64,000 bases of DNA. It comes from Actinomycetota bacterium. GTDB taxonomy: Bacteria > Actinomycetota > Actinomycetes > S36-B12 > CAIYMF01. This document shows positions 13,712 through 56,187 of this stretch, one piece after another (positions within the stretch are counted from its first letter, which is position 1; every line of letters starts with the position of its first letter). The notes beneath the pieces were generated by a model that did not search any database, was not told the origin of the DNA, and saw only the letters and a list, made by a program, of their open reading frames with translations. Where the stretch lies: the NCBI GenBank assembly GCA_026393115.1, contig JAPLAU010000030.1, positions 62,001 through 126,000 of the forward strand, read 5' to 3'. The position numbers and the translations under genes are program-made.

Positions 13712-13730
13712 CCCCCAAACCTACCCTTTT

Positions 13731-13788
13731 GCGCATGGGGGGACATTCAGCACGCATAGACGCAGTTTTCCTACCCCAGCATGGCGCG
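13731..13788 (+). repeat. Dispersed repeat family B, copy 1
   Basis: A roughly 50-bp intergenic element with the core GCACGCATAGACGCAGTTTT (13750-13769) preceded by a CAT-G6 tract and followed by CCTACCCCA. The same order of blocks recurs at 55630-55680 (plus) and 56070-56120 (minus). It lies between the divergent aroA and SRAP starts and has diverged more than the other two copies. Nature unknown; no transposase is nearby. Confidence 0.75.
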
Positions 13789-23418: not shown

Positions 23419-23592
23419 GGTCGTCGGGTGAACGCCAAATCCCGCCCTCACCCGGGTGCCACACCCCCTCGGGCGGGAGCGGGGGACCCAACCTTCTGAG
23501 CGCCGATCTGGTGCCCTTGGGGTGAAGTTCTCCTTACGGAGGGCCGGGCCATAGCGATGGCCCGAACCCGACAGCTCACCTCGTAGGCGTGC
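23419..23592 (+). promoter_or_regulatory. c-di-AMP (ydaO-yuaA) riboswitch, second copy
   Basis: The leader of the M23 gene has the ydaO blocks in the same order as the copy at 2.1 kb: GAACGCCAAATCCC near 23430, GCGGGGGACCCAA near 23479, CTTGGGGTGAA near 23516, and the 3' block CCCGAACCCGACAGCTCACCTCGTAGGCG near 23561-23589. The start codon lies 13 bases further on. The upstream DNA (23285-23326) holds a bulged stem-loop and a possible -10 TACTAT at 23300-23305. Both wall-hydrolase genes in this window are thus predicted to respond to the same second messenger. Confidence 0.88.
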
Positions 23593-23604
23593 GGAGGTCC
23601 GACT

Positions 23605-24483
23605 GTGTCACGACGTTTCGCATTCGCTGCTGTGTCTGTTCTCGCACTCTCGGTCACGCTGATTCCAGCGACTGTCGCCACTGCTGCACCGGCGCCCATG
23701 GGCGTCGTCGTGCGCGCGTCGGTGCCGAACTTCCCGGGCAACCTCAAGGCGGGCTCGCATGGTGCTGCTGTCACGGCCGTGCAGAAGGGTCTGCTCGCCC
23801 ACGGATACAAGATTTCGGGCCTCACGCTCGCTAGCAGCCGTACCAAGTTCGGCGTGCTGGGCGCGGCCACGATGGCCACGATCATGCGCTACAAGAAGGC
23901 GCACAACCTCGGGCCGAGCTTCGCGGTCGGTCCCAAGACGTATGCGTCGATCACTGGTTGGAAGGCCAACACTGGCGGTTCCAGCGGTGGTGGCGGAACG
24001 AGTGGCGGATCGACTGGCGGAACGACTGCGCGCTGCGGCTCGTACACCGGGCATACCTGCAAGACGACGGCCACCGGCGGACGCTTCTGTCCCACGATCG
24101 GCGCGTACATTGGTGATGGTTTCGGCGCCAACCGCGGCAGCCACTCACATCAGGGCGTAGACCTGATGAGCGTCAAGGGTCGGCCGATCTTCGCAGTCGA
24201 AGGCGGTGTGGTCGCTGGCGCGAAGATGCAGAGCAACGGTGCGCTTGCCATCACCATTAAGGGCCAGAGTGGCAATGTCTGGTACTACGGACACCAGTCG
24301 GTGAACCTCGTCAGCGATGGAGACACGGTCAAGGCTGGCCAACTCATCGGTCGCGTGGGTGACACGGGTGCTCCCGGCGCCTTCCACCTGCACTTCGAAT
24401 ACCGTCCGGGCAGTCCCGGTGACGCGTGGTACCACGCTGTGGCAGTCGACCCGGTGCCGCTGATCAAGAAGCTCTGCTTCTAG
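23605..24483 (+). CDS. Secreted M23 peptidase with peptidoglycan-binding domain
   Basis: A 292-residue exported protein. A signal peptide covers about residues 1-28 (cleavage near TAAPAP). A PG_binding_1-like repeat (GNLKAGSHGAAVTAVQKGLLAHGY) occupies about 45-110, then a Gly/Ser/Thr linker, then a LytM/M23 domain from about 165. The zinc-site motifs HxxxD (SHQGVDLMS) and HLHFEY are present, so the endopeptidase is probably active. The GTG at 23605 has GGAGG seven bases upstream. The c-di-AMP riboswitch in its leader suggests coordinated control with the NlpC/P60 protein at 2.2 kb. Confidence 0.93.
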   Translation: MSRRFAFAAVSVLALSVTLIPATVATAAPAPMGVVVRASVPNFPGNLKAGSHGAAVTAVQKGLLAHGYKISGLTLASSRTKFGVLGAATMATIMRYKKAHNLGPSFAVGPKTYASITGWKANTGGSSGGGGTSGGSTGGTTARCGSYTGHTCKTTATGGRFCPTIGAYIGDGFGANRGSHSHQGVDLMSVKGRPIFAVEGGVVAGAKMQSNGALAITIKGQSGNVWYYGHQSVNLVSDGDTVKAGQLIGRVGDTGAPGAFHLHFEYRPGSPGDAWYHAVAVDPVPLIKKLCF

Positions 24484-24498
24484 CTGCCGCTTCTTTTT

Positions 24499-24563
24499 CC
24501 GCGAGTCCATCAGTTACGCGGGTTATCCGGCCGGTTTATGCCGCGTAAGTGATGAACTCGCGG
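24499..24563. repeat. Dispersed hairpin repeat family C, copy 1
   Basis: Arms of 23 bases (24499-24521 and 24541-24563) pair with two mismatches around a 19-base loop that contains CCGGCCGG. A near-identical direct copy lies at 25647-25710 (two differences over 64 bases). The two copies bracket the single gene 24628-25629. The stem could act as a terminator for the M23 gene, but such sequence conservation is more than a terminator needs. Confidence 0.9.
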
Positions 24564-24627
24564 AACGTTGGGCAGGGGCTGTGGATGAATTCCGCGGTGC
24601 CGCGGCGAATTCGGGCACCCTTGCCAC

Positions 24628-25629
24628 ATGGCTCGACACGCATCTGCTGATCCGCCGGGACTGCCGGCCGTTGTGACGGCAGCACAAGCTGAGGGGGCGG
24701 GAATCAGCCGCGACATGGTTGCGGCTCGCATTTCCGCGGGGCGCTGGGAGCGGCTGCACCGAGGAGTGTTCCTTCGTCTCGAGGCAACGCTGACGACGCC
24801 ACGCGACGCCGAACAGCGCGACCTCATGCACGTGTATTCCGCTCTCGGAGCCGCCACCGCACGGCCCGGTTCGGTCGTATCTTATTCGTCCGCCGCGTTG
24901 GCACTGCGACTGCCGTTGGTGTCAGGAACTCCGGCGGTTCCCCATCTCACTGCGCCGCCCACGGCCCCGAGCGGCACGCGCGCGGGAGTGATCGCCCATC
25001 GCCGCGGAATTCGTGAAGGCGATGCCAGCGTGGTCGACGTGCACGACATCTGGCGCGACCCTGCGAGGGGAGAGCCACTCCGTTCCGGTCAGGCGCCCGC
25101 GCCCGCGCTCGGACTCGTGACGTCGCCCTCGCGCACGGTGCTCGATGTGGCGCGCACTGCGAGCCTGGCCGACGCCCTGTCGGTTGGTGATCGGGCGATT
25201 CGCTCGGGACTCGTCACGCCGGGACAACTCGCCGATGACCTCATAGTTCTCGACGATCGTCCGGGCACCCGACGTGCGGCTTTGGCCTTGGCCCATCTTG
25301 ACGGCGGACGCGAAAGCTCGCTGGAATCGTTCTCGTTCGCGTACTTCCTTGAGTGTGACCTGCCCTTGCCGGAAGTTCAGGTGGTGATTGAGCTTGCCAC
25401 GGGGCAGATCGCGCGCGTTGACTTCCTCTGGCGGGAATTTGGCGTGATCGGCGAGGCCGATGGGGCGATGAAATACAGGGGGCAGCATGATCTGCTGATG
25501 CAGGGCCAGCGGGAAACGTTGCTACGCGACCTCGGCTACGTGATCGTGCGCTGGACGTGGGCTGACATCGCGTCGGGCCGCCTGTTCCACCGGCTGCTCG
25601 CTGTTCTCGGATTGGCCCACGCGGCCTGA
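24628..25629 (+). CDS. AbiEi-like HTH plus DUF559-type endonuclease-fold protein
   Basis: A 333-residue protein of a type frequent in Actinobacteria. The N-terminus (residues about 20-50, GISRDMVAARISAGRWERLHRGVF) is a winged-helix domain of the AbiEi_4 antitoxin group. The C-terminus (about 225-330) looks like a VSR/DUF559 restriction-endonuclease fold: ESSLESFS, ARVDFLWREFGVIGEADG and AMKY supply a plausible E...D...ExK-like metal site. Biological role is not established; such genes are often solitary and variable between strains. CACCCT six bases upstream of the ATG suggests leaderless transcription. It is flanked on both sides by direct copies of a 65-bp hairpin repeat, which hints that the unit can move or be exchanged. 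Confidence 0.78.
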   Translation: MARHASADPPGLPAVVTAAQAEGAGISRDMVAARISAGRWERLHRGVFLRLEATLTTPRDAEQRDLMHVYSALGAATARPGSVVSYSSAALALRLPLVSGTPAVPHLTAPPTAPSGTRAGVIAHRRGIREGDASVVDVHDIWRDPARGEPLRSGQAPAPALGLVTSPSRTVLDVARTASLADALSVGDRAIRSGLVTPGQLADDLIVLDDRPGTRRAALALAHLDGGRESSLESFSFAYFLECDLPLPEVQVVIELATGQIARVDFLWREFGVIGEADGAMKYRGQHDLLMQGQRETLLRDLGYVIVRWTWADIASGRLFHRLLAVLGLAHAA

Positions 25630-25646
25630 CCACTCTCTACCCCCGT

Positions 25647-25710
25647 CCGCGAGTCCATCAGTTACGCGGGTTATCCGGCCGGTTTAGGCCGCGTAAGTGA
25701 TGGACTCGCG
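25647..25710. repeat. Dispersed hairpin repeat family C, copy 2
   Basis: Arms 25647-25669 and 25689-25710 pair over 22 bases with one mismatch around a 19-base loop containing CCGGCCGG. Direct orientation relative to copy 1 at 24499. It fills the gap between the convergent stops at 25629 and 25719, where it may also serve as a bidirectional terminator. Confidence 0.9.
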
Positions 25711-25718
25711 CGAAGAAC

Positions 25719-40545: not shown

Positions 40546-40916
40546 GGCCGTGTGGATCGCCGGGGTCGTGTCCGCCGTTTCCGAGCGTTCTCTGGGCAAA
40601 ACGGTGCGCTTTGTGAATCGATTTGCCCAGAGATTGGCGAAATCGCTTCGCGCTAGGTTCCGCGCGCACGAAAATCTGCCGGGATTGCTATCTCACGGGG
40701 CTTGTGGGCCGTCGAGATGACCAACGCGGCAGATTTTCCACTGGAACACGAGCAGATTTACAGTAATGCGGGAAATCCGCATAGTGGAGTCATGAGCGAC
40801 AAGCCATTCCACGTTTCGTTGGCCGCGCACACTTCGAGTTCGTCACCGGCGATGGGGACGGTGTGGTGCGATGGCGGCGCATCGGCCGGCGTGGAATCTA
40901 TGCGAACCCGTAGCCC
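40546..40916. other. Gene-free 371-base gap rich in inverted repeats
   Basis: Besides the family-A repeat, AAAATCTGCCG (40671-40681) and CGGCAGATTTT (40727-40737) form an 11-bp perfect stem around 45 bases. ATTCCACG near 40814 is matched by CGTGGAAT near 40889. A plus-strand frame of 97 codons across 40702-40995 has no ribosome binding site or homology, runs into the convergent gene, and is not called. The stacked hairpins look like a MITE or REP-like mosaic, or a decayed mobile element. Confidence 0.6.
40585..40646 (+). repeat. Dispersed repeat family A, copy 1
   Basis: A 62-base element matching the reverse complement of 47027-47088 with three differences. It contains TCTCTGGGCAAA (40589-40600) and TTTGCCCAGAGA (40622-40633), a 12-bp perfect stem, with a smaller stem inside the loop (CGCTT against AATCG). 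It could terminate the membrane-protein gene, but no T-run follows. Confidence 0.9.
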
Positions 40917-47026: not shown

Positions 47027-47088
47027 GCGATTTCGCTATTCTCTGGGCAAATCGCTTCACAAAGCGCACCGTTTTGCCCAGAGAACGC
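47027..47088 (-). repeat. Dispersed repeat family A, copy 2
   Basis: Inverted relative to copy 1 at 40585-40646, with 59 of 62 positions identical. It contains the 12-bp perfect stem (47040-47051 with 47073-47084), and inside the loop a second stem CGCTT-CACA-AAGCG that is intact here. It lies in the 284-base gap between the divergent M15-type and M20 genes; nothing else is recognised in that gap. Confidence 0.9.
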
Positions 47089-55553: not shown

Positions 55554-55629
55554 ACTTACGGCCTTTGTTCCGTCCATAGTTCCGACCATACTTCCGCGGC
55601 GCCCGTGCACCGGTGCGCCCCCACCTCCT

Positions 55630-55680
55630 CCGCATCGGGGGACCCTCAGCACGCATAGAAGCAGTTTTTCTTCCCCATCC
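55630..55680 (+). repeat. Dispersed repeat family B, copy 2
   Basis: Core CAGCACGCATAGAAGCAGTT preceded by CCGCAT-CG5ACCCT and followed by a T-run and CTTCCCCATC. It matches copy 3 (56070-56120, opposite strand) at about 46 of 50 positions and copy 1 (13731-13788) less well. It lies between the divergent decarboxylase and lipoyl-domain genes. Confidence 0.85.
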
Positions 55681-56069: not shown

Positions 56070-56120
56070 GATGGGGTAAGAAAACTGCTTCTATGCGTGC
56101 TGAGGGTCCCCCCATGCGGA
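56070..56120 (-). repeat. Dispersed repeat family B, copy 3
   Basis: Reverse-complement copy of the element at 55630-55680. The minus strand reads TCCGCATG5GACCCTCAGC and continues through the shared core to a CTTACCCCATC end. With copy 2 it forms an inverted pair around the lipoyl-domain gene. It directly abuts the 17-bp purine tandem repeat at 56120. Confidence 0.85.
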
Positions 56121-56187
56121 AAAGGGAAGGGGCGGGAAAAGGGAAGGGGCGGGAAAAGGGAAGGGGCGGGAAAAGGGAAGGGGTGGG
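56120..56187 (+). repeat. 17-bp purine tandem repeat, four units
   Basis: Four consecutive units of AAAAGGGAAGGGGCGGG (56120-56136, 56137-56153, 56154-56170, 56171-56187, the last with one C to T change). The strand is almost all purine, with eleven or more G-runs, capable of G-quadruplex or triplex structure. It lies seven bases beyond the stop of the NHLM ABC gene in a convergent gap. Confidence 0.95.

Follow-up and report, generated by a model that had tools for sequence, protein, structure and literature searches.

A dispersed DNA dyad and the AbiEi-type, nuclease-like gene that it brackets appear to form a partnership, in which genes of this family tend to have a bracketing dyad of their own; we place the probability of this reading at about 0.6. 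The window (the whole stretch of 64,000 nucleotides that was analysed, from contig C27 of the 3.51-Mb draft genome G000; G001 is the one other genome of the genus) carries two direct repeats, 24498–24562 and 25646–25710, with 97% identity over 65 nt, i.e. two differences, in agreement with the near-identical pair described in the initial annotation. The upstream dyad (24497–24565, + strand), a family C palindrome with two inverted half-sites GCGAGTYCATCASTTACGCGG, ends 62 nt before the start codon of an AbiEi/DUF559-type gene of 333 aa (24628–25629, + strand), and the downstream family C dyad (25646–25712, + strand), in direct orientation to the upstream copy, lies 16 nt after the stop codon. 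The pair encloses this one gene and no other, as had been claimed. The adjoining genes encode an M23 peptidase and a thiamine-pyrophosphate enzyme, and there is no toxin gene adjacent to the window gene, both neighbours being of other families. The gene and both hairpins are present at the same place in G001; the suggestion that the gene belongs to a strain-variable class is therefore not borne out by these two genomes.

Both window hairpins fold far better than shuffled sequences on either strand (z −6.6 to −7.9), and the 21-base arm, which is found 4 times in the window, is matched in none of 100 shuffles. The initial annotation had proposed a stem with a conserved loop: the strong folding stands, but the stem has a mismatch, and the “loop” belongs to the dyad, whose centre varies, the centre CCGGCCGG being confined to the window pair among 25 aligned family C copies.

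The window protein carries an AbiEi_4 DNA-binding domain at its N end (Pfam match of 30.8 bits, cut-off 25) and gives PADLOC AbiEi matches. The AbiEi part of its earlier AbiEi/DUF559 classification is thus supported, whereas the DUF559 match is weak for the window protein (E 0.16) and above cut-off in some relatives (L210, L101, L243, and L246, the last of different make-up and unbracketed). Residues D265, E276, and D278 in the C end are invariant and K282 is nearly so in an alignment of 10 sequences, a set which we take to be a PD-(D/E)XK-type active-site pattern. The best solved relative is an endonuclease-like protein (PDB 3hrl), which the family profile matches at E 8e-5 over the C end. 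On the basis of these similarities the C end is read as nuclease-like, with a putative PD-(D/E)XK-type fold; the predicted structure of the window protein (pLDDT 39.7) is unusable. The proteins resemble DUF559/3hrl endonuclease-like proteins in this profile match and in the passing of the DUF559 cut-off by L210, L101, and L243, but differ in that the C end is joined to an AbiEi-type N end and the gene is bracketed by dyads. A search with exact peptide patterns identified no viral relative of the window protein.

The bracketing of AbiEi/DUF559-family genes is no accident: dyads of shared sequence flank 17 of 25 family loci on both sides. Among 207 distinct control genes of 250–420 aa this arrangement was seen in 2, both of them in G002 (106 genes), and in none of the 101 from G000. 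The dyad test required dyads on both sides of the gene sharing a 10-mer; dyads on both sides without common sequence were seen in 8 of 101 (G000) and 24 of 106 (G002) controls, and since such unshared pairs are not rare, shared sequence is the criterion that counts. When the two 400-nt flanks were compared with each other, a repeat at E < 1e-6 was detected at 16 of 25 family loci (10 of the first 15, 5 of 8 on named actinobacterial replicons, and 1 of 2 tested last) versus 1 of 263 controls (G000, 0 of 105 rows; G002, 1 of 106; named replicons, 0 of 52 genes). Four rows were removed from the first repeat-test controls, i.e. the window gene (twice, in overlapping loci) and two G002 family genes, and the 52 named-replicon controls were hand-picked from 116 annotated features in nine loci. 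Fisher's test gave p 2e-18 for 15 of 23 loci and 1.5e-15 for 12 of 19 orthologous groups, with the two last-tested loci outside these counts; among loci examined after the idea arose (the named replicons and the last two), 6 of 10 pass the repeat test. The sole positive control in this test is an IS1595 element that lies within one of the G002 dyad copies (L225, 13570–14770), where an apparent 9-base duplication is observed.

Within the family, the dyad sequence changes from gene to gene. The G000/G001 paralogues C10/C259, C25, C5/C349, and C7/C93 are each bracketed by a dyad of their own sequence, as are, among other bracketed family genes, two in G002, one in G015, and one in G016 (a genome listed as 9% contaminated). 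In G016 the palindrome is multi-copy and unrelated in sequence, and two copies bracket a relative of the window gene; at the eno gene in other genera, an unrelated palindrome was found in one of the 6 loci read, that of G016 (13 loci in the comparison, 7 without eno read). The named-replicon loci passing the repeat test are from Collinsella aerofaciens, Tsukamurella tyrosinosolvens (three loci), and Arthrobacter sp. ERGS1:01. Their dyads are clear in Collinsella, Tsukamurella L243, and Arthrobacter L245, weak at L242, and not on both sides at L241, which passes via a GC-rich direct repeat with no clear dyad. The G001 DUF559 gene (L101) is also bracketed (53 nt, 94%).

Of the 25 loci, eight do not pass the dyad test and nine do not pass the repeat test; G004 C91, Tsukamurella L244, Streptomyces canus L246, and Arthrobacter L239 and L234 pass neither. 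Among the failing loci, L246 has a deoxyribosyltransferase domain and no AbiEi match, L244 has no Pfam match, and L239 is a doubtful gene call. A palindrome is present on the downstream side only at G001 C224, and a weak family match in G002 without a Pfam domain is not bracketed; G001 C191, which is cut by a contig end and stands outside the count, has its downstream dyad. The homologue list (E ≤ 1e-15, family only) is not exhaustive and missed genes in L101 and L197. The named-replicon loci are 8 actinobacterial ones taken from hit rows H1–H22, in which H19 is the H4 Streptomyces locus; Geobacillus, Parageobacillus, Thermoactinomyces, and proteobacterial DUF559 rows were left out.

The position of the bracketing dyads, which span 41–71 nt in the 15 loci examined, is usually similar from locus to locus. 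In 10 of the 15 the upstream dyad ends 50–88 nt ahead of the start codon. The start of the downstream dyad falls in the interval from 41 nt before to 43 nt past the stop codon in 14, i.e. everywhere except at L241. At C7/C93 the flanking copies are alike within a species and their inner part differs between species; in G000 C7, the repeated stretch takes in the last 27 nt of the gene. Judged from these sequences, the C7/C93 flanking copies seem to undergo concerted evolution, which is what copying from one to the other would produce.

G000 contains 27 copies of the family C hairpin, a 67-nt dyad; 26 of them were identified with a covariance model at E ≤ 3e-9 and the 27th at 4e-4 (the weak matches C7:115854 and C20:155709 are excluded). 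The half-site GCGAGTYCATC occurs 75 times in G000, with 54 occurrences forming 27 inverted pairs; the 21 unpaired half-sites are mostly of the codon-like GAGTTCATC form, and their small number disfavours a DNA uptake signal. Among 40 genomes of the order (own included), covariance-model matches at E ≤ 0.001 were found in G000 and G001 only. A pattern scan of 84,980 species genomes returned 37 stretches, of which 24 belong to G001 (bin LJ_bin-5001) and the remaining 13 are single matches in other organisms with other spans. There was no DNA match to the family C dyad in the plasmid collection, and in the viral collection one stretch matched, at another span.

Family C half-sites are under strong selection. 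Comparison of G000 with G001 reveals that both half-sites are kept at 21 of 22 aligned loci, and that positions 1–11, leaving aside position 7, changed in 2 of 440 cells (22 loci, two species), compared with 11 of 44 for position 7 (C or T), 55 of 854 for the inner part, and 206 of 1381 for the flanks of the same loci. The variable half-site position toggles independently on the two arms, and no covariation of stem base pairs was detected; columns 10/58 of 25 copies contain C-G (8), U-G (5), U-A (4), and the remaining C-A (8), which is the prediction for independence. An RNA structure was rejected on account of these stem pairs without covariation. Because the half-sites are conserved as DNA without base-pair covariation, the family C dyad looks like a pair of inverted DNA sites for a protein, and not like an RNA stem or a terminator. 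The ends of 26 copies read TTYC(GC)GCGAGT, and the flanks read GGAA outwards.

By our own gene calling, 24 of the 25 copies examined are intergenic; the remaining copy, at the end of a contig, overlaps a short predicted frame. Of the 25, 13 lie between tandem, 6 between convergent, and 5 between divergent genes. The initial annotation doubted that the hairpins are plain terminators, and rightly so: there is no T-run after either window stem on either strand, nor in the flanks of 26 copies, one fifth of the copies (5/25) lie between divergent genes, and the stems do not covary. A terminator scan, which allows loops of 3–8 only, reports neither window hairpin. A repeat found genome-wide at many convergent gene ends, with no link to gene presence or absence, had been considered sufficient for a terminator or REP explanation; the family C dyad fits this by half, as it does occur genome-wide but has only the 6 copies in 25 at convergent gene ends.

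Several bracketing dyads are dispersed. In 384 kb of G002 the dyad of its family genes is present 11 times, with 6 copies on two stretches chosen for these genes and 5 on the other 18, and the G016 dyad occurs at 21 places in G016 and at none in 10 genomes of its genus. Two further intergenic clusters of the Collinsella dyad lie within 40 kb, and the Tsukamurella L243 dyad has remote copies on two other records, one between convergent and one between divergent genes. Matching places in their own record number 3 for the Tsukamurella L242 dyad and 10 for the Arthrobacter dyad, the remote copies being candidates. The dyad bracketing the paralogue on contig C7 (AAAATCTGCCG half-sites) has a dispersed copy in the window (40671–40737, no strand assigned) and also recurs on C33. 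For the C10 and C25 dyads, only the bracketing copies were found in 507 kb; the pattern used for the C5 dyad over these 507 kb misses even its bracketing copies. A further dyad family with TCTCTGGGCAAA half-sites is present in the window at 40589–40633, with a second copy at 47040–47084 (neither with a strand assigned), and no family gene was recognised between the two. The TCTCTGGGCAAA...TTTGCCCAGAGA dyad is also seen at C33:30628 and in G001 C283.

To our knowledge, RAYT is the one protein family tied in such a way to dispersed bacterial palindromes. No RAYT transposase (Y1_Tnp, PF01797) was found in G000, which is 95% complete (0 matches; the same search matched 5 of 14 control genomes). 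The REP/REPIN-like interpretation raised at the outset is upheld with respect to dispersal (27 copies) and to the bracketing of related genes by other dyads, but not with respect to a RAYT. In the available text on RAYT genes (PMC2817692), these have a repeat-gene-repeat plan, co-evolve with REPs, and are proposed to spread them; the shared features of such REPtrons are a gene between two palindromes, the downstream one often near the stop codon, with cognate copies dispersed between genes in a lineage-specific manner. In contrast to REP/RAYT, the protein here is AbiEi-like with a nuclease-like end, G000 lacks a Y1 transposase match, the dyad copies are direct whereas RAYT genes lie between inverted REPs, and the system is in Actinomycetota. 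Nor do the palindrome ends here carry the GTAG/CGTC tag, and the dyads span 41–71 nt where REPs are of 20–40 bp, on the description in the accessible part of PMC3733652. The best reading is a gene-repeat partnership that has the layout of REP/RAYT but an unrelated protein at its core.

The relevant parts of PMC7319586 describe AbiEi of Streptococcus agalactiae as binding two 23-bp inverted repeats 3 bp apart, and Rv2827c as having 23-bp inverted repeats 13 bp apart (about 59 bp overall, as many of the dyads of 41–71 nt here); each represses its own operon. The window gene is like AbiE type IV toxin-antitoxin systems in its AbiEi_4 domain, PADLOC AbiEi matches, and upstream inverted repeats of a geometry like that given there (PMC7319586), but unlike them in the absence of a nucleotidyltransferase toxin partner, the second, downstream copy, the dispersed copies, and the nuclease-type C end. 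Because the dyad plan resembles the AbiEi/Rv2827c operators, binding of the dyad by the product of the bracketed gene is likely. The protein would then bind its own dyad as AbiEi proteins bind 23-bp inverted repeats, which would let it control its own gene. The nuclease part may nick or cut at dyads, and repair might copy dyads into other intergenic places, such that gene and repeat would persist together like RAYT and REP. We propose tentatively, at somewhat short of even odds, that AbiEi-DUF559 proteins make and keep dispersed long palindromes in Actinomycetota, and would represent a REP/RAYT-like system that arose a second time and independently. In it, a sequence-specific PD-(D/E)XK nuclease would spread the dyads that it binds through cutting and repair, and each gene lineage would have a dyad of its own, which would account for many lineage-specific palindrome families. 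The orthology of family C copies in the two species, with 21 of 22 intact, and the failure to find a clean empty site for a dyad between G000 and G001 argue against recent spread.

The protein could instead be a regulator and the dyads operators of its own and other genes, with no mobility. Autoregulation by AbiEi proteins via inverted repeats upstream of the operon (in the text available of PMC7319586), the operator-like position of the upstream dyad, and the strong selection on half-sites are all consistent with this, yet it leaves unexplained the second copy at the stop codon, the copies between convergent genes (6/25; Tsukamurella L249), and the nuclease-type C end, and we consider it unlikely as a full account. 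Still less probably, the dyads are common dispersed palindromes of a REP-, MITE-, or terminator-like kind that are functionally unconnected with the gene. In favour of this, the copies are intergenic and near stop codons (11 of 13 tandem-gene copies are closer to the stop than to the start codon, p 0.011), they form stable RNA hairpins, and stem-loop repeat families are common in bacteria (as far as the consulted portion of PMC2267715 describes them); but related genes are bracketed by differing dyads far above controls, and there is no T-run, no covariation, and no Y1 transposase. The dyads are like MITEs in being short, intergenic, multicopy inverted repeats, and unlike them in that there is no target-site duplication (direct flank match 0.10–0.35 over 16 offsets in 26 copies), no longer element with family C ends was evident from the half-site counts in G000, and they are tied to a gene family not known as a transposase.

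A mobile cassette, flanked by site-specific recombination sites and gained or lost as a 1.15-kb unit, had also been suggested, and is very improbable. It would account for two direct copies around one gene and for C32:9963, where a gene and dyad in G000 correspond to a different gene and no dyad in G001. The window unit is nevertheless at the same place in both species, the other G000 paralogues, with other dyads, have the same neighbours as their G001 counterparts (C10, C5, and C7; C25 as far as the contig reaches), and identity change-points are rarely at dyads. Species identity jumps near the first window hairpin, but the fitted change-point falls within the gene, about 330 bases further right; among 13 aligned regions fitted, C33:20452 alone has its change-point 11 bases or less from the dyad, and a recombination hot spot was rejected. 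Gene gain and loss beside dyads is only modestly raised: indels of at least 300 bases occur in 3 of 18 intervals with a dyad and in 6 of 190 that lack one (p 0.03), the latter figure being 3 of 68 when the comparison is limited to gaps of at least 60 bases (p 0.10), a signal too weak for an insertion hot spot. If two loci that run across contig ends are counted as well, a large indel adjoins 5 of 20 intervals with a dyad, as a cassette might give. One 3.66-kb stretch abutting a dyad in G000 C23 (L148, 5357–9016) is missing from G001 and carries a pair of small genes, presumably MazEF-like.

The gene-repeat partnership replaces the cassette idea and is seen in several Actinomycetota lineages. 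Among the literature matches listed, with most subscription papers outside the scope, there was no report linking AbiEi/DUF559 genes with bracketing palindromes; in the part consulted of a text naming both an AbiEi family antitoxin and palindromes, the two are in separate contexts. If the partnership is real, a second, unrelated family with a gene-repeat arrangement would make the origin of lineage-specific actinobacterial palindromes directly testable. It would also point to a function for those “AbiEi antitoxin” and “DUF559” genes that have no toxin partner and provide a working rule, i.e. that the flanks of such a gene predict its DNA target.

Other repeats and elements were observed in these genomes. 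A further dispersed palindrome family, GGTCGAGCGTAGTCGAGACC, has 7 copies, or 9 by pattern scan, in 384 kb of G002 (L222–L233). On G000 C33 (L031, 1–9000), three dyads with like centres lie among metabolic genes, and in G001 the dyads alone are matched. In the window, a repeat of about 55–62 nt is present in three copies (13720–13781, 55624–55679, and 56070–56125), and c-di-AMP riboswitches (RF00379) are located at 2064–2222 and at 23423–23605, the latter directly upstream of the M23 peptidase gene.
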